Source of the DNA: Ignavibacteriales bacterium
Lineage (GTDB): Bacteria > Bacteroidota > Ignavibacteria > Ignavibacteriales > Melioribacteraceae
NCBI GenBank assembly: GCA_026390795.1
Contig: JAPLFG010000003.1
Location: forward strand, 1,488,001 to 1,552,000
DNA: 64,000 nt
Reading direction: 5' to 3'
Below are positions 52,664-63,469 of this stretch, piece after piece. Every line of letters begins with the position of its first letter. Position 1 is the stretch's first letter. A program made the position numbers and the translations under genes. The notes under the pieces are model-generated. The model did not search any database and was not told the DNA's origin. It saw nothing but the letters and a program-made list of their open reading frames with translations.

Positions 52664-52736
52664 GCACCCTTAGCTCAGTTGGTAGAGCATATGACTCTTA
52701 ATCATCAGGTCGCGGGTTCGAGTCCCGCAGGGTGCA
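52664..52736 (+). tRNA. tRNA-Lys (anticodon CTT)
   Basis: A full cloverleaf of 73 nt. The acceptor GCACCCT (52664-52670) pairs with AGGGTGC (52729-52735), with discriminator A. The D arm is GCTCAGTTGGTAGAGC, the anticodon loop CTCTTAA with CTT, and the T arm GCGGGTTCGAGTCCCGC. CCA is not encoded. A terminator follows. Its 3' part is repeated downstream at several places, which marks it as an insertion site. Confidence 0.96.
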
Positions 52737-53488
52737 CTCTAGGGTACAAGTCGCTTTTCGGAGCGACTTTTTTTTTGCCCTCCGTTAGAAAACCATTGGT
52801 ATCATTGGTCAAAAGCTCTAGCACAAAATTGAGCTTGGGGGTTCTATAACTAATAGATCGAAAAATTAGGGGCAGATGAGGAAAATCATGTACAAACACT
52901 TTGTACTTAGTAAGATGTTTGGTTTTTAAAAATATTTTCAAAGTTGAGTTCGACGTTTACCAATTTATTTAAACTGGGATAAATTATTCTTTTTATGTAA
53001 CCCAGAGATTAAACTTATCATTATAAAAGACACGACATGCAAAATTATTTGTTGACAATATGAGAATTTTTTTGAATTTTGAATTGGTTATTCTCTCCAA
53101 TTATCCTTTTATGGCCAGCTTCTCCTCTTAAGAAACATATGAATACTTATTGAGGTAGTCGTGAAAAGATTATTTGTTGTCCCTTTGCCTTCATTAGTTT
53201 TACTAAGTGCTTACCCAAATTTATCTAAAAAGGTTGACCCGATATATTCCTTTATCCAAAATTTCATACCCCCAAAGAATATCATAAACATAGATGACTC
53301 TTTTAAAAATTGGAAGAGTAAATAGTATTTCAAAAAGAAGTTATTTGGAAGGCTAAACTTTTGGCTTTTGATATGAATTGTAATAAACTCTCTAAGGGTT
53401 GCCAATGCCCAGGGAGTAAAATCAATTTCATTGGTAAAACTATATTGGGCGGGAGAAAAATACACGCCTTGAATCAAATGGAGGAAAA
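52737..53488. other. Gene-poor stretch after tRNA-Lys, left part of a long direct repeat
   Basis: The first 120 nt (to about 52860) hold the tRNA terminator and a sequence closely repeated at 56950-57066. The remaining ~630 nt are A/T-rich. One short rightward frame (53161-53325, 54 codons from GTG, hydrophobic start) and one leftward frame (53211-53477) overlap each other and lack recognisable similarity, so I call neither. The promoter of the LamG gene should lie in the last 150 nt. Confidence 0.5.
52748..52778 (+). terminator. Rho-independent terminator of tRNA-Lys
   Basis: AAGTCGCT (52748-52755) pairs with AGCGACTT (52762-52769), followed by seven or more T. An identical hairpin recurs at about 56961-56990 inside the repeated copy. 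Confidence 0.88.
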
Positions 53489-56400
53489 ATGAAAAAATTC
53501 ATTTTCAGTTTTTTCTTGATGATTGGAGTACTCATATTCAACTCACAATCAATTGCTCAAAACGGTTCCGCTCTGTTCGACGGCGCTGGAAGTAGAATGC
53601 GTGTAGCAGATGGAAATGCAGCCTCGCCAAACGCTTTTAGAATTAACGGATCTGCAATCACCGTTGAAGCATGGATATATCCTTTATCATATCCGAATTC
53701 TCAATTGGGGAATACTATTGTTGCACGAACTCTGAACACCGTTTATTCGGAACCATGGATAAGTTACAGACTTTGGATTAATCACGCAAACGGAGTTTCG
53801 TTGCCTGCCTTTTCAATTTCGGCAGGTACAATTGGCAGTACAGTTACAGTTCAATCACCCGAGGATATTCCATCATTTCAATGGATACATCTTGCCGCTA
53901 CATACGATGGTACGTTTCTCACAATTTATGTAAACGGTCTGCAGAAAGCACAAGTTAACACTTCGATTTCAATTAACTCTGCCAATGGAGTTGGATTCTA
54001 TGTTGGTCGGTATTTAACAGATGCTTTCCAGGGAGCTATCGATGAAGTCCGGCTCTGGAATATTACTCGAAGTCAGTCCCAGATTCAAGCGTTTATAAAT
54101 TCGCAATTGATAGGTAATGAGGCGGGACTCGCCGGTTATTGGGACATGAATTCATCTTCTCTTTCGGGAGGATCGATGCTTGATAGGACTGCAAATCATA
54201 ATAATCTTCCGGTTCAGGGAAGTACCCCAATCATTCCTTTCAATCCTCTCTCAGCATCGGGTACTGCTATACTTATTGCTAGTCCGAATTCGATTGACTT
54301 TGGGAGTATAGAACAAGGATCAACTTCAATCCGTCAAGTAACACTTACAAATAATGGCACCGGACCTTTACTTGGGATGTTCCAACAAAGTTCTAATGTT
54401 GAAGTTACTTCGGGTTCAGTATTTTTTCTTGCAACAGGCCAATCATCAAATATTTCCCTTGGTCTTAAGCCATTAATTCCAGGTAACATTTCCGGATTGC
54501 TTCAAGCTAAATCAAACGCATCGCCTGCAGATATTTCATTCTCAATTCTATCCATTGCCCTTAGACAGATTGATGCGAATAATATCAGTATGTGGACATT
54601 GCGTGATGGCCGCTTTTCCATAAACCCAGTCTATAATATTGCTGGTTTGGAGTGGCCGAAAGGTTCCGGAAAAACTCTGGCCTACTCATCGGGCATTTGG
54701 GTTGCAGCAAAAGTTAACTCACAAGTGAGATCCGCTCTTGCCTGGTATAACTCAGAGTTCCAACCAGGGCCCATACTTGGTGTTGGCGGTGTTGCTGCTA
54801 ATCCGAATGACAATGCTTATAGAGTTTTCAAAATATCGGCGGGTGATAATTCGTCTACAAATGAAGATTATGCTGAGTGGCCCGCTTCACTTGGTGCGCA
54901 GGTTAATTCTGATGGGACACCAAAGATTATAGGAGATCAAACATTATTTGCTGTTTATAATGATCTGAATCAATCCAAACATTCTTTTGGCTCAGCACCT
55001 CTTGGCGCAGAAGTCCAACAAACAACATTCGCTTTTAATAATTCTGATGCTCGATCCAATACTGTATTTTTGAATTTTAAAATTGTAAATAAAAGTAACT
55101 CTACCTGGCAAGATGCATACGTCTCTCTCTGGTGCGATCCGGATCTCGGAAACGGTGAAGATGATCTAAATGGAGTTGATGTGCCTAGAAACATGGGGTA
55201 TTTTTACAATGGAAACCCTGTTGACGATGTATATGGAAATGAACCGCCTGCAATTGGATACAAAGTTCTGAAGGGGGCTTTCTTCACAAAACCGATTCAG
55301 GCTTTTTCTTCCTTTTTGAATATAGGTCCAAGTACACCGCAAGGAGATCCCAATACTTCACAAAAAGCATATAACTATATGCAGGGTCTATGGGCAGACG
55401 GAACACCGTATCTTGATCCAACAAATTCATATTTACCAACTACTTTTGCGTTAAACGGAGATCCTGTACCACCAACAACTGGATGGATTGACAGTTCACC
55501 TAACGATCGCCGTTTCCTTCTTTCAACCGGTCCATTCAATCTTGACCCAGGTCAATCGAAAGACTTTGTTGTTGCAATCATTGTTGGACAAGGCAATAGC
55601 AATATCGAAAGTATTACTGCCCTCCGCTCTGCTTCAGATGATATTCAATCACTTTATGACAATGCTCAGATTTATGGAGGAGCGCTTGTGGATGTTGTAC
55701 AAGCCTCTGCATCGAGCGGAAGTTCAAACACGGTCAATGATATTACAAATTCTGGTTCACAGATAACTTTCACGGGAGGAACAGGGGGTGCTGTTGTTGA
55801 ATCTGCTTCATATGTTGAAGCTCCTCCAGGGGCGACTTCTATTACAACTCCATCGGTAGGCGGTGTTGGAAAATATTTGGATGTCCAAGTACAAGGCACT
55901 GTTAGCTGGCCTGTGAAGATTCGGATTTACTATACCAAAAACGATCTTCTTCAGGCTGGAATTGTTGAAAGTGATCTTCAGGGGCTATACTATTGGAGCG
56001 GATTGACTAATTCGTGGAATTTATATTCCAATTCCGGTTCCGACGATCAAAGTAGAGGGACATCTACAACTTTTGTTGATACTACCAATATAAATATCAA
56101 CTCAGTTAATTATGAGGGCTATGTTGAAGCCGAAGCCTTTCATCTGACTCCAATAATAGTCGGAGCTAAGAAAAAATCAATTACCGAACGGTACAATTTT
56201 GCTGCACAATTCATTCAGTCACTACCCGACGACGCATTTAAAAAACCAGCCGATACTAGAAGAAAGCAGCTGGTAAAAATGTTAGATCAATCTAAATCAA
56301 AATATGATTCAGGTAATTTGCAATCGGCATCACAATACCTATCGACAAATGTATTAAATCATCTAACCACTCAGGGAAAGTCCAAGCAAGATTTATGGGT

Positions 56401-56797
56401 AACTGATGAATCCTCGCGCACTACCGTTTTGCGGATGATTAATGAATTGATCGATGTTCTGCTTAGACCAGAGACTTTAGGTAAGATTGTCGAAGGTGAT
56501 TTGAATATGGCCAATCATATTATTGAAATCCCAACCGAATTTGAATTGTCGCAAAATTATCCAAATCCATTTAATCCAACTACGAGAATACAATTTGGTT
56601 TACCTGCGAATGCTCATACTAAATTGACAATTTATGATATGCTTGGTCGAGAGATTGCAACAATTGTAAATGCTGATTTAGGTGCTGGTTATCATGAGGT
56701 TGAGTTCAATGGATCAAATCTGCCGAGTGGAATTTATATCTATAGAATTCAAGCAGGAGAATTTACTTCTGTAAAGAAGATGATCTTGATGAAATAA
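53489..56797 (+). CDS. Large secreted LamG-domain protein with type IX secretion C-terminal signal
   Basis: A 1102-residue secreted protein. The signal peptide covers about residues 1-23 (ending SIAQ). A LamG/concanavalin-like domain (about 25-220) has the typical VEAWIYPLSYPNSQ, HLAATYDGTFLTIYVNGLQK and GAIDEVRLWNITRS. An ASH-type beta domain follows (about 265-355, IDFGSIEQGSTSIRQVTLTN). A long middle part is unassigned. The last 85 residues are a type IX sorting domain: SQNYPNPFNPTTRIQFGLP, YDMLGREIATIV, GIYIYRIQAGEF, KKMILMK. GGAGGAAAA precedes the ATG. It is probably cell-surface attached, binding sugar or protein. It lies alone between two tRNA-Lys-like repeats. Confidence 0.9.
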   Translation: MKKFIFSFFLMIGVLIFNSQSIAQNGSALFDGAGSRMRVADGNAASPNAFRINGSAITVEAWIYPLSYPNSQLGNTIVARTLNTVYSEPWISYRLWINHANGVSLPAFSISAGTIGSTVTVQSPEDIPSFQWIHLAATYDGTFLTIYVNGLQKAQVNTSISINSANGVGFYVGRYLTDAFQGAIDEVRLWNITRSQSQIQAFINSQLIGNEAGLAGYWDMNSSSLSGGSMLDRTANHNNLPVQGSTPIIPFNPLSASGTAILIASPNSIDFGSIEQGSTSIRQVTLTNNGTGPLLGMFQQSSNVEVTSGSVFFLATGQSSNISLGLKPLIPGNISGLLQAKSNASPADISFSILSIALRQIDANNISMWTLRDGRFSINPVYNIAGLEWPKGSGKTLAYSSGIWVAAKVNSQVRSALAWYNSEFQPGPILGVGGVAANPNDNAYRVFKISAGDNSSTNEDYAEWPASLGAQVNSDGTPKIIGDQTLFAVYNDLNQSKHSFGSAPLGAEVQQTTFAFNNSDARSNTVFLNFKIVNKSNSTWQDAYVSLWCDPDLGNGEDDLNGVDVPRNMGYFYNGNPVDDVYGNEPPAIGYKVLKGAFFTKPIQAFSSFLNIGPSTPQGDPNTSQKAYNYMQGLWADGTPYLDPTNSYLPTTFALNGDPVPPTTGWIDSSPNDRRFLLSTGPFNLDPGQSKDFVVAIIVGQGNSNIESITALRSASDDIQSLYDNAQIYGGALVDVVQASASSGSSNTVNDITNSGSQITFTGGTGGAVVESASYVEAPPGATSITTPSVGGVGKYLDVQVQGTVSWPVKIRIYYTKNDLLQAGIVESDLQGLYYWSGLTNSWNLYSNSGSDDQSRGTSTTFVDTTNININSVNYEGYVEAEAFHLTPIIVGAKKKSITERYNFAAQFIQSLPDDAFKKPADTRRKQLVKMLDQSKSKYDSGNLQSASQYLSTNVLNHLTTQGKSKQDLWVTDESSRTTVLRMINELIDVLLRPETLGKIVEGDLNMANHIIEIPTEFELSQNYPNPFNPTTRIQFGLPANAHTKLTIYDMLGREIATIVNADLGAGYHEVEFNGSNLPSGIYIYRIQAGEFTSVKKMILMK

Positions 56798-56820
56798 AGA
56801 ATATGGAAATATAAAGATAA

Positions 56821-56856
56821 AAGAGCCTCGAGTTTTTCGGGGCTCTTACGTTTTAT
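56821..56856 (+). terminator. Rho-independent terminator after the LamG gene
   Basis: AAGAGCC (56821-56827) pairs with GGCTCTT (56841-56847), extended by a weak inner stem, followed by ACGTTTTAT. Confidence 0.7.
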
Positions 56857-56913
56857 CCAGATTCACATTTAGACGTTAAGATTTCTTGCAACCTCAATAA
56901 TTTTTTGAGGTCT

Positions 56914-57066
56914 TCAATAAAGGGGTTCGAGAATAGTCCCCTAGGGTGCACTCTAGGGTACAAGTCGCTTTTCGGAGCGACTTTTTTTTGCCCGAAGTAA
57001 GAATACCATTGGTATCATTGATCAAAAACTCTATGATAAAATTGCGTTTGGGGGTTCGATGATTCC
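56914..57066. repeat. tRNA-Lys 3'-end remnant plus copy of the tRNA downstream region
   Basis: From 56925 a T-arm-like GGGGTTCGAG...GTCCCC is followed by AGGGTGCACT, the tRNA-Lys acceptor strand and its next bases. The sequence then continues as a close copy of 52737-52850: the GTACAAGTCGC terminator hairpin, then ACCATTGGTATCATTG and a diverged tail. The first 39 nt (56914-56952) are also found, one base different, at 60621-60659. This looks like an attachment-type duplication made by insertion at the tRNA gene. Confidence 0.8.
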
Positions 57067-57074
57067 TGGGTGCA
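57050..57074. repeat. Second degenerate tRNA-Lys T-arm/acceptor remnant
   Basis: GGGGGTTCGATGATTCC followed by TGGGTGCA looks like another worn copy of the T arm and acceptor end of tRNA-Lys, in the same orientation. The following about 100 nt (57068-57173) have a weak partial match at 61076-61181. Confidence 0.45.
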
Positions 57075-57219
57075 ACTCAAACATACAATACCTTTAAAAA
57101 CTTAGCAAACTGGAGAAAAATTTATCGGCAGTTTTTACTGAAAGGTGCAATTGGACAATTAAGTGGCTGATTCATTAATCAAATTAGTAAAGCTGAATTT
57201 ATATTCTTAATTTATATCC

Positions 57220-57477
57220 ATGAAGAAATATTTTTTTATAGTATTTATTCTGGTCGTATCTATTTTTAATGGTGGCGATCTGAAAATTGTGCTGGATTCA
57301 GGTATGAATACTAATTCAATGAATATCTCGCACCATAACCACATTGATGATATGTTCGAATTGGTAGTAGCAGATAAAAAGCCTGAACACACCACATCTC
57401 AAATCATCGCTGAATCATCCCATGTCTTTTCCCAAGAGAATCATAATAAAATCTGGAAACCCCCGGTAAATTCCTAG
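57220..57477 (+). CDS. Small exported His-containing protein, unrecognised
   Basis: An 85-residue frame with a clear N-terminal hydrophobic signal (YFFIVFILVVSIFNGG) and a polar remainder containing HHNHIDDM and several further His. I do not recognise it. Position before a broken zinc-ribbon gene and a P-type cation ATPase makes metal binding conceivable. It lies in a region of repeats and decayed genes, has no clear ribosome site, and could be a remnant. Confidence 0.4.
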   Translation: MKKYFFIVFILVVSIFNGGDLKIVLDSGMNTNSMNISHHNHIDDMFELVVADKKPEHTTSQIIAESSHVFSQENHNKIWKPPVNS

Positions 57478-57600
57478 ATACTCTTTTGGAGAATCCTAAA
57501 CTGGATATCTCCAAATATCTTAAAATACTTTTTAAACAATTCAATTTGGTTAGATTATTTTCTAACTCCATTATTCATAAAACTCAACCAAGGAGAAAAT

Positions 57601-57927
57601 ATGTAAGAGTGTCCAAGTTGCGAAGTAATAATGAATGAAGTAACAAAATCGGGAGTGTTGATAGATGTATGCCCAAAGTGTATGGGTGTTTGGCTGGATA
57701 AAGGAGAACTCGAATAAATAATTGCACAGTCGGATGCATATGAAACCCAATTTAATAATGATCACCCGAGTGACAGCCACAACTATGAAGATGATTACGA
57801 AAATTACGACGGTCACAACGATAAGCATCACGAAAAGTATAGTGGAAAAGTTTTTTATGATAAGAACGGTAAAGCTATTCGGAGACGAGGGGGATTCGGC
57901 GATATCCTTGGAGGACTGTTTGATTAA
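57601..57927 (+). pseudogene. Zinc-ribbon (zf-TFIIB type) gene interrupted by two TAA codons
   Basis: AAGGAG then ATG is followed immediately by TAA, and then a 35-codon zinc-ribbon: ECPSCEVIMNEVTKSG, IDVCPKCMGVWLDKGELE (C-x2-C twice, with the family WLD-x-GEL). A second TAA follows where such proteins usually have Lys (GELEK-I-I). The same frame then continues without further stops to a His/Asp/Tyr-rich stretch and the family-like end GGFGDILGGLFD, stop at 57925. Both stops are one base from AAA. It is in frame over 109 codons, 20 nt before the P-type ATPase, and appears freshly disabled, barring sequencing error. Confidence 0.75.
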
Positions 57928-57947
57928 CCAAAAGCAAAGGAATAGCA

Positions 57948-60524
57948 ATGAAAAATTTTGATTTAAATTCTTACACTGGACTTACCGCTGAACAAGTGGC
58001 AAAGCAATTGCAAGAAAACGGATACAATGAATTACCGACGACAAAGAAACGTGGAATAGGCATAATAGCTTTTGAGGTGATTAAAGAACCTATGTTTCTT
58101 TTGTTGGTTGCTTGCGGCGTTCTCTATCTTCTTTTGGGCGATGTTAAAGAAGCAATGCTTTTATTGGGATTTGTTTTTGTAATCATGACAATTACATTTA
58201 TTCAGGAAAGAAAAACAGAAAGAGCGTTGGAAGCACTAAGGGACTTATCAAGTCCGCGAGCTTTGGTGATTAGAGACGGAAAAGAAATTAGAATTGCCGG
58301 AAGAGAGGTCGTTAAGGGTGATATTATAGTGATGAATGAAGGTGATCGAGTACCGGCAGATGCAATGGTAATTCAGTCAATAAATTTGAGCGCGGACGAG
58401 TCTCTTTTAACCGGCGAATCTGTCCCGGTAAGAAAAATCAATTCTGAGGGAGATGATGAAAAACTTTTTGTTTCGAAAACTCCGGGCGGGGATGACCTAC
58501 CATATATTTATTCAGGATCAATGATTGTACAAGGACAGGGAGTTGCAAAAGTTCTTGCGATTGGTCAGAAAACGGAAATCGGAAAAATTGGAAAAGCTTT
58601 AAGCAGTGTAGAAATTGAAGATACACTACTAAAAAAAGAAACGGGGAGATTAGTAAGAAATATTGCTTTTATCGGTGCGTCATTATGTTTGATAGTAATT
58701 TTAATAATAGGATTTGTAAGAGGCGAATGGATTCAAGGATTTCTTGCCGGATTAACTTTGGCAATGGCAATGTTACCTGAAGAATTTCCAGTTGTTCTAA
58801 CAATATTTCTTGCTTTAGGAGCTTGGAGAATTTCAAAACGGAATGTATTGACAAGACGTATTCCAGTAGTAGAGACTCTTGGCGCTACAACGGTATTATG
58901 TGTAGATAAGACAGGAACCCTCACATTAAATCAAATGGGAATCGGAATGTTCTATGCCGGAGAACAATATTTAAATTCAACGGCAATAGAATCAAAAACA
59001 ATCCCGGAAAACTTTCATTTTCTTGTAGAATATGGAATATTGGCAAGCCGCAAAGATCCATTTGACCCGATGGAAAAGGCATTAAAGAAACTCGGTGAAT
59101 TAAAACTACAGGGAACGGAACATTTACATAATGATTGGGAATTGATTGAAGAGTATCCGTTATCGCGGGAACTGCTTGCGATGTCCAATGTTTGGAAATC
59201 CGAAAGCAGGCGGCAATTTACTATTTCATCAAAGGGTGCACCTGAAGCAATAATCGATCTTTGTCATTTAACAGAAACGGAGAAAAAAAATCTTACTACA
59301 GTTGTTGATAAAATGAGTGGTGAAGGATTGCGTGTCCTTGGAGTTGCCAATGCGATGTTCGATGCAACAAATCTCCCAGATAGCCAGCATGATTTCGATT
59401 TCAAGTTTATCGGCTTTATTGGTTTTGCCGATCCGGTCAGACCGGCAGTACCTCAAGCCATACAAGAATGCTATAAAGCCGGCATTCGGATTATAATGAT
59501 TACAGGCGACCATCCGGGAACGGCAAAAAATATTGCAAAGCAAATCGGACTAAAGAATTGCGAGAAATTTATTATAGGAAGTGAATTAGCCGCAATGAAT
59601 GAGACTGAATTGACAAATCGAATTAAGGATACAAACATTTTTTGTCGGGTTGTACCTGAACAGAAATTGAAAATTGTAAATGCTTTGAAATTATGCGGTG
59701 AAATTGTCGCAATGACAGGAGACGGAGTAAACGACGCACCGGCATTAAAATCGGCACACATAGGGATAGCAATGGGCGGAAGAGGAACGGATGTTGCACG
59801 AGAATCAGCGTCTCTTGTTTTGTTGGACGACGATTTTTCTTCGATAGTAGGCGCAGTTAAAATGGGAAGAAGAATTTATGACAATCTTAAAAAGGCAATG
59901 TCGTATATAGTTTCTATTCATGTTCCCATTGCCGGATTATCCTTGATACCGCTTTTCATTAACAAGGATTTAATATTTTTCCCAATTCATATAGTCTTCC
60001 TAGAATTAATTATCGATCCGGCATGTTCTGTGGTATTTGAAACTGAAAAAGAAGAATTTGATTTATTGAGCCGACCGCCAAGAAAAGTAGGCGAACCACT
60101 ATTCGGTAAGAAAAATGTTTTATTTAGTCTCTTACAGGGTTTAAGCGTATTGTTTGTTTCGTCTGCAGCATATTTTATAGCGATTGACGGCGGCAAAGGA
60201 GATGCAGAAGCCCGCGCGATGACTTTTACAACGTTAATACTTGCCAACTTAGGATTGATTTTGACCAACCGTTCTTGGAGTACAAATTTATTTTCATTAC
60301 TGAAAGAAAAAAACATTGCTTTTATTTGGATTGTGTTTGGTGCGCTTATATTTTTAACAATAGCTTTGTTTGTACCACAAGTTTCAGATTTATTTCGTTT
60401 CAGTTTTCTTCACATAAATGATTTACTGATCTGTTTTGCGGCCGCATTTGTAAGTATGGCAATATCGGAGATAATGAAACTTATTAACAGGTTGTATGGC
60501 ATGAAGGAAAAATATAATGAATAA
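57948..60524 (+). CDS. P-type cation-transporting ATPase (P2-like)
   Basis: An 858-residue P-type ATPase with an N-terminal cation-ATPase domain (LTAEQVAKQLQENGYNELP). The actuator motif is LTGESVPV (154-161), and the phosphorylation site DKTGTLT has Asp320. Membrane helix 4 holds MLPEEFPVVLT (PEEFP at 277-281). The hinge is TGDGVNDAPALK, and about four C-terminal helices follow. The layout is like Ca2+/Mn2+- or H+-type pumps, but PEEFP differs from the PEGLP of calcium pumps, so the ion is uncertain. There is no N-terminal heavy-metal domain. It lies 20 nt after the broken zinc-ribbon gene and was probably once co-transcribed with it. Confidence 0.93.
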   Translation: MKNFDLNSYTGLTAEQVAKQLQENGYNELPTTKKRGIGIIAFEVIKEPMFLLLVACGVLYLLLGDVKEAMLLLGFVFVIMTITFIQERKTERALEALRDLSSPRALVIRDGKEIRIAGREVVKGDIIVMNEGDRVPADAMVIQSINLSADESLLTGESVPVRKINSEGDDEKLFVSKTPGGDDLPYIYSGSMIVQGQGVAKVLAIGQKTEIGKIGKALSSVEIEDTLLKKETGRLVRNIAFIGASLCLIVILIIGFVRGEWIQGFLAGLTLAMAMLPEEFPVVLTIFLALGAWRISKRNVLTRRIPVVETLGATTVLCVDKTGTLTLNQMGIGMFYAGEQYLNSTAIESKTIPENFHFLVEYGILASRKDPFDPMEKALKKLGELKLQGTEHLHNDWELIEEYPLSRELLAMSNVWKSESRRQFTISSKGAPEAIIDLCHLTETEKKNLTTVVDKMSGEGLRVLGVANAMFDATNLPDSQHDFDFKFIGFIGFADPVRPAVPQAIQECYKAGIRIIMITGDHPGTAKNIAKQIGLKNCEKFIIGSELAAMNETELTNRIKDTNIFCRVVPEQKLKIVNALKLCGEIVAMTGDGVNDAPALKSAHIGIAMGGRGTDVARESASLVLLDDDFSSIVGAVKMGRRIYDNLKKAMSYIVSIHVPIAGLSLIPLFINKDLIFFPIHIVFLELIIDPACSVVFETEKEEFDLLSRPPRKVGEPLFGKKNVLFSLLQGLSVLFVSSAAYFIAIDGGKGDAEARAMTFTTLILANLGLILTNRSWSTNLFSLLKEKNIAFIWIVFGALIFLTIALFVPQVSDLFRFSFLHINDLLICFAAAFVSMAISEIMKLINRLYGMKEKYNE

Positions 60525-60620
60525 TATAAACTCACTCATGAAGAAGAAAAGCAAATTGTATTCATTTGTTATTCACTTGATCTTAAAATTATTTGGAGTC
60601 TTATTAATTTTTTTAGATCA

Positions 60621-60659
60621 TCAATAAAGGGGTTCGAGAATAGTCCCCCAGGGTGCACT
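60621..60659. repeat. Third tRNA-Lys 3'-end remnant
   Basis: TCAATAAAGGGGTTCGAG (60621-60638), then AATAGTCCCCC and AGGGTGCACT, match 56914-56952 with one difference. It closes the segment holding the zinc-ribbon pseudogene and the ATPase. Confidence 0.8.
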
Positions 60660-60663
60660 AGTT

Positions 60664-60700
60664 AAGCCCGTTTCTAAATCAGAAACGGGCTTTTTTGTTT
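60664..60700 (+). terminator. Strong hairpin terminator
   Basis: AAGCCCGTTTCT (60664-60675) pairs perfectly over 12 bp with AGAAACGGGCTT (60681-60692), loop AAATC, followed by TTTTGTTTT. It follows directly on the third tRNA remnant. Confidence 0.88.
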
Positions 60701-60707
60701 TAAAACA

Positions 60708-61027
60708 ATGATGTACATGAAGCAGTTGGATGAATATGGAATAAAATTTCACAGCTATACGGAAGAATATCTTACAACCGACAACGAGCTTGTGTCGAAC
60801 ATTCTATTCTCAGTAATGAGTTACTTTGCAAAGCTAGAAAGAGAAAAAATATGTGATCGCACCAAAACATGTCTAGAGTGAGCAAGACTGAAGGGAAACC
60901 AATAGGTAGACCCGTCAAAGAAAAATTGAGAGTGAACATTTTAGAATTGCGGAAGAATAATTCGATTCGTCGAGTTGCGGAGCTCATGAGTATCTCCACC
61001 GGTACTGTGATGAAATACTCAGATTGA
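60708..61027 (+). pseudogene. Remnant of a serine recombinase (resolvase/invertase) gene
   Basis: The frame from 60708 reads as the second half of a resolvase catalytic domain: KQLDEYGIKFHSYTEEYL, ILFSVMSYFAKLEREKICDR. A TGA at 60879-60881 interrupts it where Arg (CGA) is expected in the ...LERARLKG... segment. After a one-base shift it resumes as PIGRPVKEKLRVN and ends in the helix-turn-helix VAELMSISTGTVMKY, stop at 61025-61027. The N-terminal third with the active-site Ser is absent. It is thus truncated, with one nonsense change and one frameshift: a clear mobile-element relic. Confidence 0.85.
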
Positions 61028-61514
61028 ATCAAGGTCTAGATAAATCGAGCAACCCAAATGCATCGTATAACTTTTAGGTACAACTCATATATATCCGCAG
61101 AAATTTAGAAAAGTAAGAAAAAGTTTTTTCAAGCTTCTACTGAATTTGGTAGTTGGAAAACAAGTATTTTAAGGCTGATCTTCAAAGTTGAGGAAAGAAC
61201 CTTTCCCGGAGAATTAAAAACAAAAAGATGAACTCTTCATCGTTGCCTAGATGAGAGCGAAGAGACCTGTCAATCACGCCACACTCCTAAGATTATTCAA
61301 GCAAACTTTTAAGAAATCTCTTTACCTCTAGTAAGTTTTGTATTATGAGCTCATTACTTAGTCGATAAATTTCCGCATAAAACTCAATTGTTTGCATCAC
61401 ACTATTAGGATGTCGGCTCCGCTTAGCACAGAAACAACTTGACAAAGAAAACATTATTTTTTATTCTGTAACAGATATTTCAAAAAATAATATTTTGTAA
61501 TAAATATTACGGCT
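61028..61514. other. 487-nt gene-free stretch after the recombinase relic
   Basis: No frame has support. Sequence at 61076-61181 (starting GGTACAACTCA) is weakly similar to 57068-57173 (GGTGCAACTCA...), including ACTGAA and GGCTGAT blocks. The right edge of the accessory region probably lies in here. The promoter for the M20 peptidase operon should be in the last 150 nt. Confidence 0.4.
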
Positions 61515-62603
61515 ATGGAAAAAAGATTACTCGAAATTTTTTTGGAATTAGTTAAGATCGAAGCCCCCTCTGCCTCAGAAAAAAACATGGCAAAATTTTT
61601 AATCACATTTTTAGAAAAGCTCGGACTTAAGCCCGCGGAAGACGAGTCGGCAAATATTTCCGACGGAAATACTGGAAATATAATTTGCAAAATCGGAACA
61701 GGTGGAAATTATGTTCTGCTCTCACACATGGATACCGCTCGATCTACATTAAATCTGAAACCGAAGATACTTGCTGATCGGATTACTTCCGACGGGACAA
61801 CAATTCTTGGAGCTGATAATAGAGCTGGGATTGCCTCTCTGATTTATTCGCTTGAAAAATTAGTCAAGGGAAATATCCTTTTAAAAGATTTTACTCTGGC
61901 ATTTACAACGCAGGAAGAGACTACTCTTCATGGATCACAAAATTTAGATCTAAACGGAAATATTAAAATGGGTTTTGTCTTTGATTCCCATCTTAAACCC
62001 GGAAATTTTATTTGTGAGTCTGCAGGATCAGTAGGTTTTTGTATCAAAGTTAAAGGGAAGGCTTCTCACTCCGGTTTAGCTCCTGAAAACGGAATTGACT
62101 CTATCAAAATTGCCAGTGTTGCGATCAGCAAAATTAATTTAGGCAAAATCGATTCTGACACTACCGCAAATATCGGAATAATCAATGGAGGAACCGCCAC
62201 TAACGTTGTTCCAGAATTAACTTCTATCCACGGTGAGATTAGATCAACAGTCCCTTCGAAGATTGACGTAAAACTTTCTGAGATAAAACATGAATTTATA
62301 TCTACCGCTAAGTTATACGGCGGGGAATGTGAATTCGAGTCTTTTTGGAATTTCAAACCATATAAAATTACTCCTGATAACGAAACTTACAAAACGATTG
62401 AGCGTGCAATAAGAAATGTAGGAATAATACCTATTCCTGAAATTTCAAAGGGAGGCAGTGATGCAAACTCTCTAAACACGAAAGGGATCCCTACGGTCAA
62501 TCTTGGTATTGGTGCTGAGAATCCGCATGCAAATGATGAATACATCCTTTTCGAAGATCTCCAAAAAACTGCTGAAATAGCAATGGAGCTGATGAAAAAA
62601 TGA
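61515..62603 (+). CDS. M20-family metallopeptidase, tripeptidase T-like
   Basis: A 362-residue cytosolic zinc peptidase. Metal ligands are visible at LLSHMDTARS (His71), ILGADNRAGIA (Asp101), TTQEETTLHGS (Glu134-135, catalytic and metal) and VFDSHLKPG. The lid/dimerisation domain has KGKASHSGLAPENGIDS, and the final ligand is in GAENPHANDEY. It resembles PepT/YqjE-type peptidases removing N-terminal residues from short peptides. Its stop overlaps the cyanophycinase ATG by 4 nt. Confidence 0.9.
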   Translation: MEKRLLEIFLELVKIEAPSASEKNMAKFLITFLEKLGLKPAEDESANISDGNTGNIICKIGTGGNYVLLSHMDTARSTLNLKPKILADRITSDGTTILGADNRAGIASLIYSLEKLVKGNILLKDFTLAFTTQEETTLHGSQNLDLNGNIKMGFVFDSHLKPGNFICESAGSVGFCIKVKGKASHSGLAPENGIDSIKIASVAISKINLGKIDSDTTANIGIINGGTATNVVPELTSIHGEIRSTVPSKIDVKLSEIKHEFISTAKLYGGECEFESFWNFKPYKITPDNETYKTIERAIRNVGIIPIPEISKGGSDANSLNTKGIPTVNLGIGAENPHANDEYILFEDLQKTAEIAMELMKK

Positions 62604-63469
62604 AAATATTTAAACTTTTCTTATCCATTCTCCTCTTTAGTTCGTTTCTCTATTCTCAAACAAGAGGGAAACTATTTATTATCGGAGGCGGAACGGTACC
62701 CGGCTATATGATCGACAAATATGTTGAACTTGCCGGAGGGAAGAATTCAAAATTTTTAGTAGTTCCTATGGCAAGCGGAGTGCCTCAGCAATCTGCTTCT
62801 TCATTCATCAAAAAACTCCAAACAGCAGGATGTACAAAAGTAAAATATCTGATCAGCAATAAAGAAAGTGCCGATGCCGATTCTAATCTAATAAAATTAA
62901 AAAACGTTACAGGCATTTACTTTACCGGGGGAGACCAATCAAAACTAATTGCCGCATTAACCGGGACAAAATTACTTGAAGGGATAAAAAATATTTATAA
63001 GAATGGTGGAGTTATCGGAGGAAGTAGTGCAGGTGCGGCGGTGATGAGCGGTATGATGCTTACCGGAAATGAACTTGTAAACAAAGATACAGTTAACGCG
63101 TTCAATATTATTGTAAAGGGGAATGTGCAGACGGTTGACGGGTTCGGTTTTATTAATAATGCCATAGTAGATCAGCATTTCATTAAAAGAAAAAGAATTA
63201 ATAGACTATTAACTCTGGTGCTAGAAAATCCGAAACTGGTTGGGATAGGAATTGATGAATCTACGGCTATTGTAGTTAATTCCGATGATACTTTTGAAGT
63301 AATTGGAGAAAGCCTGGTCACAGTATTCGACGCATCAAAGGTTAAAGATATTAGCACTGATAAAAATAATAACCTCTCTGCGAGCGATATAAGGATGCAT
63401 CTGTTAAAAAGCGGCGATGCATATAATATTAAAAGTCATGCGGTTACCCATAAAAGGGACAAGCAATGA
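62600..63469 (+). CDS. Secreted cyanophycinase (peptidase S51)
   Basis: A 289-residue peptidase S51 enzyme with a signal peptide (about residues 1-20, ending FLYSQ). The nucleophile Ser143 lies in GGSSAGAAVMSG, with the earlier loop FTGGDQSKLI and VVDQHF-type segment AIVDQHFIKRKR. Cyanophycinases release beta-Asp-Arg dipeptides from cyanophycin; a secreted form points to use of external polymer. It overlaps the peptidase gene before it and the carrier gene after it by 4 nt each. Confidence 0.9.
   Translation: MKIFKLFLSILLFSSFLYSQTRGKLFIIGGGTVPGYMIDKYVELAGGKNSKFLVVPMASGVPQQSASSFIKKLQTAGCTKVKYLISNKESADADSNLIKLKNVTGIYFTGGDQSKLIAALTGTKLLEGIKNIYKNGGVIGGSSAGAAVMSGMMLTGNELVNKDTVNAFNIIVKGNVQTVDGFGFINNAIVDQHFIKRKRINRLLTLVLENPKLVGIGIDESTAIVVNSDDTFEVIGESLVTVFDASKVKDISTDKNNNLSASDIRMHLLKSGDAYNIKSHAVTHKRDKQ

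Follow-up and report, generated by a model that had tools for sequence, protein, structure and literature searches.

Several same-strand copies of the 3' end of a tRNA-Lys gene follow the intact gene in the genome of an Ignavibacteriales bacterium, which raises the question of what kind of element carried them there and by which enzyme. The window analyzed is a stretch of 64,000 nucleotides (G000:C3:1488001-1552000) from a genome of 4.08 Mb in five contigs; window base 1 is C3:1488001, and coordinates without a contig name are window positions. The locus is probably an accretion array of large-serine-recombinase elements, in which the attachment site of the free element (attP) lies inside the recombinase gene and the gene is split on integration. 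The array is real and of a known kind; for the gene split, support is good in relatives and weak in the window itself.

The tRNA-Lys copies and the insert they bound

The single tRNA found in the window by ARAGORN is tRNA-Lys(ctt). A pattern for its acceptor end (AGTCCCNCAGGGTGCACT, at most three mismatches) occurred three times in the 64 kb, at 52721, 56935 and 60642, always on the plus strand, and had no occurrence in 100 dinucleotide shuffles of the window. The intact tRNA and the two same-strand copies described in the first-pass annotation are thus real. The features concerned are as follows.

52664-52737, plus strand: intact tRNA-Lys(CTT) (ARAGORN), the integration target and left attachment site (attL) of the tRNA-proximal module
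52748-52776, plus strand: hairpin and T run 3' of the tRNA, module-borne (P' side), called terminator-like by eye
56922-56952, plus strand: rem1, first copy of the tRNA-Lys T-arm and acceptor, with a 5-nt insertion in the T-loop
60629-60659, plus strand: rem2, second copy of the T-arm and acceptor

The T-loop insertion is common to rem1 and rem2 (AATAG between GGTTCGAG and TCCC), and the similarity of the two copies extends some 46 nt upstream, giving 84% identity over 77 nt. The hairpin and T run recur at 56962-56989 and outside the window. BLAST against the same genome revealed further same-strand copies beyond the window, rem3 at C3:1566494-1566597 and rem4 at C3:1568140-1568262. A worn copy had also been proposed at 57050-57074. 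Read antisense, this segment gives the codons APRNHRTP, part of a stretch resembling serine-recombinase C-termini. It also overlaps, at the end, 79 nt (56982-57060) with 84% similarity to the sequence following the tRNA; it is most likely a coding relic of a recombinase and not a tRNA end.

The genes of the locus were compared with the tRNA-Lys neighborhoods of relatives, covering 20 stretches from 17 genomes. An empty site was found in G005, a member of the same genus, where an upstream permease gene, the tRNA, a terminator-like hairpin, orf120 and MEMO follow one another (the permease is named from its sequence, and MEMO is our own name). The permease, orf120 and MEMO proteins are 85%, 84% and 89% identical between the two genomes. 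The sequence following rem4 aligns with this empty site from AGTCCC on, over 79 nt at 85% and then 734 nt at 86%, which places the crossover in the T-loop. This alignment indicates that about 27.5 kb, from the T-loop of the tRNA to that of rem4, are inserted relative to G005. An empty site had been predicted in relatives and does exist, but its joint corresponds to ~80.2 kb (C3:1568.2 kb) instead of 61.2 kb. As 61.2 kb falls inside the insert, the cyanophycinase operon and the Fic gene are also part of the array. The cassettes bounded by tRNA copies therefore stand, but they form four modules over ~27.5 kb and not 8 kb: E1 (LamG/type IX), E2 (P-type ATPase), E3 (cyanophycinase operon) and E4 (Fic). 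Together, the same-strand copies and the empty site in a relative support the proposed serial insertion, in one orientation, at a single tRNA.

Elsewhere in the genus, MEMO lies 1.2 kb after the tRNA in G010, without orf120, and G004 and G007 have ~6 kb of different DNA at this place. The other same-genus stretches compared yielded no right flank, or one too short to use.

The arm as the probable tail of a serine recombinase

Joined to the tRNA ends is a conserved sequence, termed here the arm, which on the antisense strand reads as the end of a protein. The tail peptide has the consensus [FI]SNxFI[EDA]DL[RKQ][RK][IL]Ax[LI], and a stop occurs within the 23 codons read at 42 of 54 tail sites. 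In 50 of these sites (L070, L095_877 and L106_754 were left out as doubtful, and own_rem4 for a one-base indel), mean column entropy was 1.32 bits at antisense third codon positions versus 0.67 elsewhere, a contrast reached in 10 of 20000 permutations. The tail holds the T-loop motif GGTTCGA exactly at the attachment site, as would be expected if it were a conserved DNA element, such as a recombinase binding site, and not protein. We regard this as distinctly improbable, because the tail shows three-base periodicity over ~15 codons, keeps T in the second position at hydrophobic residues, ends in the stops just described and is continuous in frame with recombinases. A binding site may nevertheless overlap the codons, in which case the DNA and protein readings would both be true.

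Other genera carry the arm as well, at the ends of different tRNAs. In the form AATAAN{1,4}GGTTCGAGAATAGTCCC it is exact in four Mucilaginibacter stretches, joined there to a tRNA-Leu-like end. Five arrays have an intact same-strand tRNA upstream (tRNA-Leu at L110, L118 and L119, tRNA-His at L076 and tRNA-Arg at L117), and at the remaining sites the tRNA end was assigned by resemblance alone. Compared with tRNAs Lys, Leu, His, Arg and Glu, the sites have 5 nt extra between GGTTCGA and the 3' strand of the T-stem (manual reading). A tail-peptide search of 296 genomes of the phylum at E 0.5 gave matches in 6, two of which (G042 and G170) were set aside as ordinary coding sequence by appearance; among 301 genomes of the Mucilaginibacter family, matches were obtained in 57 with a loose limit. 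The DNA motif is present in 28 of 30 loci returned by the latter search, but it spans the same codons and is not independent of the peptide. Among 38 relatives, G001 was the only one with a match covering the T-loop end of the arm, and seven others had short matches to its upstream part (E 0.003-0.01). Three arm patterns gave no match in viral contigs; in plasmids the tail peptide had no match, and the DNA search gave five short ones (E 2-5). Nothing was found for five tail peptides in PHROGs and NCBIfam, and a PDB match of 11 residues to ketol-acid reductoisomerase (E 0.12) was taken as chance.

Three observations on the sites may be added here. A bare arm without a tRNA end, rem5 (C3:1569147-1569209, L010), is located between orf120 and MEMO, in the native flank, and may be the scar of an older insertion. 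Another GGTTCGA box, present inside many ends, had initially been taken for an arm site; in the left ends examined it coincides with YRT/HRT codons of the recombinase, and that reading was rejected. The right ends of many sites have a second T-loop-like box ~105 nt inside.

An array could also grow if tRNA ends were duplicated or recombined homologously, with no recombinase involved, and no intact recombinase is now found in this one. The shared polarity and T-loop crossover, the recurrence of the same arm at other tRNA ends in other genera and the exactness of the empty site make such an origin very improbable.

Recombinases that could own the tail were sought in relatives. With PF00239, 35 loci were matched and 23 read, picked mostly for long frames. 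Seven of the 23 recombinases reach an antisense tRNA and either stop within it or read all the way across (tRNAs Met, Glu, Leu, Ser, Arg, Arg and Leu), and six of these seven keep the frame of the tail. With PF07508, 6 of 30 loci from relatives and the own genome read into an antisense tRNA (five tRNA-Asn, one tRNA-Arg); one of them shares the frame of the tail, four use a different frame, and the sixth has its stop ahead of the core. In both samples together, 7 of 13 tRNA-reading serine recombinases are in the tail's frame. Three intact enzymes were scanned, and all contain PF00239 and PF07508, with PF13408 in two. In G605, a serine recombinase of 522 aa runs antisense into tRNA-Leu and ends inside it with ..VLRAGIEPARL and a stop, while tails at tRNA-Leu-type sites read ..VLRAG-LFSNQFIEDL... 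A recombinase of G422 (..GFVLRAG-IEPAL) and a tail of the same genome (..GFVLRAG-LFSNQFIEDLKRIVALVA, then stop) agree in frame and residues; body and tail are on separate contigs whose starts share one repeat. For the tRNA-Glu type, the recombinase reads ..VARRG-IEP and the tail ..VARRG-SFSNPF.

At three junctions (L085, L090 and L121), 72-95 residues of a recombinase C-terminal relic stand directly before the tail. Recombinase matches numbered 5 in 98,046 bp from 33 tail loci versus 4 in 475,567 bp from 58 tyrosine-integrase loci, one of the 4 being a query itself. Eight were found in 18 longer array loci, including two queries themselves and two matches to tRNA sequence only. The tRNA-reading recombinases in the tail's frame and the relic-tail junctions most likely mean that attP lies inside the 3' end of the recombinase gene and that the C-terminus is swapped on integration.

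Within the window, the probable remains of such genes are the following segments.

52708-52956, minus strand: E1 left end, likely C-terminal relic of a large serine recombinase, antisense into the tRNA (..YRTPKLNFVLELL..VHPAGLEPA)
56853-56951, minus strand: recombinase C-terminal tail at the right attachment site (attR) of E1 (VHPRGLFSNPFIEDLKKLLRLQEILTSKCESG, then stop)
56981-57073, minus strand: E2 left end, another likely C-terminal relic of a recombinase (APRNHRTPKRNFIIEFLINDTNGILTSGKKK), including most of the supposed worn tRNA copy
60569-60658, minus strand: recombinase C-terminal tail at attR of E2 (VHPGGLFSNPFIDDLKKLIRLQIILRSSE, then stop)
60702-60899, plus strand: broken catalytic domain of a serine recombinase at the left end of E3 (PF00239 positions 81-144, one TGA)

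The last of these is the only PF00239 match within the array, and searches with PF00589 and PF07508 gave none; the absence of an intact integrase noted in the first-pass annotation thus holds. Three other serine-recombinase matches are present in the genome, none with a tRNA near its stop. The relic at 52708-52956 was matched in register by 3 of 11 recombinases in tblastn (E 0.004, 0.11 and 1.3), and it ranked first among 1424 frame fragments scored with a hidden Markov model of the C-terminus (E 0.0017, the next being 0.89). The DNA of the second relic is 84% alike to the left end of E1 and 85% to the element of G001. By their letters, these segments weakly suggest a split recombinase gene in the window.

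Several results weigh against a gene split by integration. Four of the six PF07508 enzymes, which sample our own order, enter the tRNA in a frame other than that of the tail, pointing to other subfamilies. A frameshift (with a stop as well in L090) separates most of the body from the tail at L085, L090 and L121, and at L084 and L104, which account for two of the five matches in tail loci, the recombinase relic is on the opposite side of the site, reading into the second T-loop-like box. In the window, 8 of the 11 tblastn queries had no match at 52708-52956, where 30 recombinase frames from the own order and genome also gave none at E 0.5, and the E2 relic alone scores 2.8 bits with the model. 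No intact gene with the tail was found, the listed open frames over tail matches in the 301 genomes being of at most 100 aa; such an absence would be expected were attP confined to the circular form. Finally, a tyrosine-recombinase C-terminal scrap of 27 aa lies right of rem3 in E4, 59% identical to the corresponding part of the G026 enzyme (E 6e-4).

This scrap could be a remnant of tyrosine-integrase islands at tRNA-Lys that have lost their integrases, the arm then being merely an integrase-binding sequence. Relatives at the level of the order do have such islands at this tRNA (G033, 40.5 kb; G026; G023, with a partial domain). Their repeats, however, are of 44-47 nt, begin in the anticodon loop and carry neither the T-loop insertion nor the tail. 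Beside attL and attR of the array, PF00589 detected no tyrosine integrase, leaving the 27-aa scrap alone. Among 23 tail matches in 8 genomes, only one has a PF00589 domain within 10 kb, and four tRNA-Asp 3'-end copies without a tRNA gene lack the arm, three of their genomes having a tyrosine integrase behind tRNA-Asp. In a test of a tyrosine mover over 58 regions around PF00589 matches (8 genomes), the motif score was at least 31.5 in three (L140, L147 and L174); L147 and L174, two further arm sites near integrases, also have the tail peptide pattern, and a third tail-peptide match near integrases, L177, is without the DNA motif. In L147, a module flanked by two tRNA-Glu ends contains a broken tyrosine integrase, so mixed arrays exist. 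On balance, tyrosine-integrase islands are an unlikely source of the array.

We therefore return to serine recombinase elements with attP inside the gene. According to this model, four integrative elements would have entered the T-loop of the same tRNA-Lys successively, each supplying a new tRNA 3' end and terminator and displacing the older modules downstream. In the free circle, the recombinase gene would run antisense across the attachment site, with its stop ~17-28 codons past the site. Integration would cut the gene: the body would stay beside the tRNA, now ending in tRNA-antisense codons, and the last codons (FSNxFIxDLxxLAxL) would come to lie at the distal boundary of the element, fused to the displaced tRNA end. 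Of the recombinase bodies, this genome would have kept no more than C-terminal scraps, and the modules are probably stranded. We infer that this recombinase inserted the four modules, in the order that such displacement implies, and that the tail matters for its activity. Tentatively, and with some doubt, we propose a widespread class of Bacteroidota elements for which integration acts as a switch: a conserved C-terminal helix would be replaced by tRNA-antisense residues, altering the enzyme, and in tandem arrays the leftover tail would re-complete the recombinase of an element inserted behind it. Should activity depend on the tail, integration would work as a built-in switch, which could help in understanding serine integrases and perhaps in designing them. 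The codon-conserved tail also provides a searchable mark of integrase-less modules, which integrase-based island finders would miss.

Cargo, neighboring genes and other arrays

The cargo of the array within the window comprises the following genes.

53489-56797, plus strand: E1, LamG protein with a type IX tail, 1102 aa
~57602-57925: disrupted zinc-ribbon gene ahead of the E2 ATPase
57948-60524, plus strand: E2, P-type cation ATPase, 858 aa
61515-62603, plus strand: E3, peptidase M20 (E3 runs past the window to C3:1566.5 kb)
62600-63469, plus strand: E3, cyanophycinase-type S51 peptidase

The LamG protein with its type IX tail, the P-type ATPase and the broken recombinase (PF00239, one internal TGA) had been correctly named from the outset. 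E3 (~18 kb) encodes the M20 peptidase, two S51 (cyanophycinase-type) peptidases, a transporter, a TonB receptor and an aminotransferase, and E4 carries a Fic protein; the zinc-ribbon, transporter and TonB names were given from sequence only. E3 may be an operon for the degradation of cyanophycin to arginine. At E 1e-30, its cyanophycinase was not detected in any of 11 genomes of the genus that were searched and is present in 18 of 27 other genomes of the family and order, the best match (61%) being in a different family. This distribution fits a gain by transfer.

The genes neighboring attachment sites were scanned with Pfam, using 64 of 84 open reading frames on the left and 53 of 90 on the right after short or repeated ones were dropped by hand. 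Toxin-antitoxin genes, glycoside hydrolases, a permease and defence-type genes are found there, and transposase families occur among the matches listed. No site-specific recombinase was present among the best 25 of 65 families on the left and the best 25 of 47 on the right. By eye, two closely similar oxidase-like proteins with type IX-type tails (L059:6573-8315 and L077:6137-7876) were noticed in attachment-site neighborhoods from the genera of G001 and G073.

Small cargo modules recur in the arrays of G348 and G134. Behind tRNA-Leu(caa) of G348 come a HigB toxin and its helix-turn-helix partner, an attachment site, a YoeB toxin, a second attachment site and a PIN-domain protein; behind tRNA-Leu(taa) lie TacA, paired with an acetyltransferase, and an attachment site. 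These two loci (L118 and L119) have about one toxin-antitoxin pair per bounded module of 0.8-1.6 kb, in an integron-like layout, and PF00589 had no match on their contigs. In G134, tRNA-His heads two modules. Two loci with tyrosine integrases were also observed. Over the 34 kb of G000:C3:1833337-1867059, two tyrosine-integrase matches accompany a partial tRNA copy and a tRNA-like match, and a similar layout is found in G007, pointing to another tRNA island in the genus. At G028:C60:56098-63794, the 5' part of tRNA-Lys occurs again 7.6 kb upstream of the intact copy with a tyrosine integrase between them, and this element possibly replaces the 5' half of the tRNA.

Relation to known systems

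Modules that keep their attachment ends without a recombinase are known as cis-mobilizable elements (CIMEs), which arise in tandem accretion. The array is like them in having modules bounded by attachment sites and no intact recombinase (no PF00589, no PF07508 and a broken PF00239). Tycheposons, where a tyrosine recombinase accompanies tRNA-bounded cargo, differ in that the PF00589 search of the array found no such enzyme. In archaeal SSV-type integrases, integration likewise partitions the gene, but these are tyrosine recombinases, and the cut falls close to the N-terminus. No report of a conserved recombinase tail was found in the literature, searched mostly outside subscription journals.

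Additive flexible genomic islands with tRNA-end repeats have been described at tRNA-Lys(ctt) in Methylophilaceae (PMC10872708) and in Actinomarinales (PMC7771536). Unlike the array studied here, their cassettes come with no described recombinase or split gene in the portions of these two papers available to us. For serine integrases, the available part of one account reports that the zinc-domain motif is shifted by 5 bp between attP and the chromosomal site, attB (PMC3783163); the 5-nt extra spacing in attR found here matches this shift, though on one side only. The enzymes of relatives share the domain set of large serine recombinases and differ from those described in that part in that the attachment site most likely lies in their own 3' end.

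The closest parallel is with the ssrA-specific islands of Dehalococcoides (PMC3146451), for which, in the text accessible to us, tandem islands are bounded by repeats of the 3' end of the transfer-messenger RNA (tmRNA) and insertion is in the T-loop. A conserved motif lies beside each repeat, some modules are thought to lack integration genes, and the term CIME is used there as well. Their recombinase DsiB, a serine recombinase of 540 residues, is encoded on the reverse strand beside attL, with its 3' end overlapping attL; in the same text its true stop is left unclear, a separate 3' fragment being merely suggested (PMC3146451). Tandem modules, same-orientation 3'-end repeats and T-loop crossover are common to both systems. 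A recombinase gene antisense to attL and overlapping it is intact in relatives of our bacterium, whereas the window has a weak C-terminal relic only. The present array differs from what is described for Dehalococcoides in its target, a tRNA and not tmRNA, in its phylum, and in that the fragment is here seen, conserved at the codon level over 50 sites. The proposed gene split points to an answer to the question raised by that account, namely where a recombinase gene overlapping its attachment site truly ends (PMC3146451).

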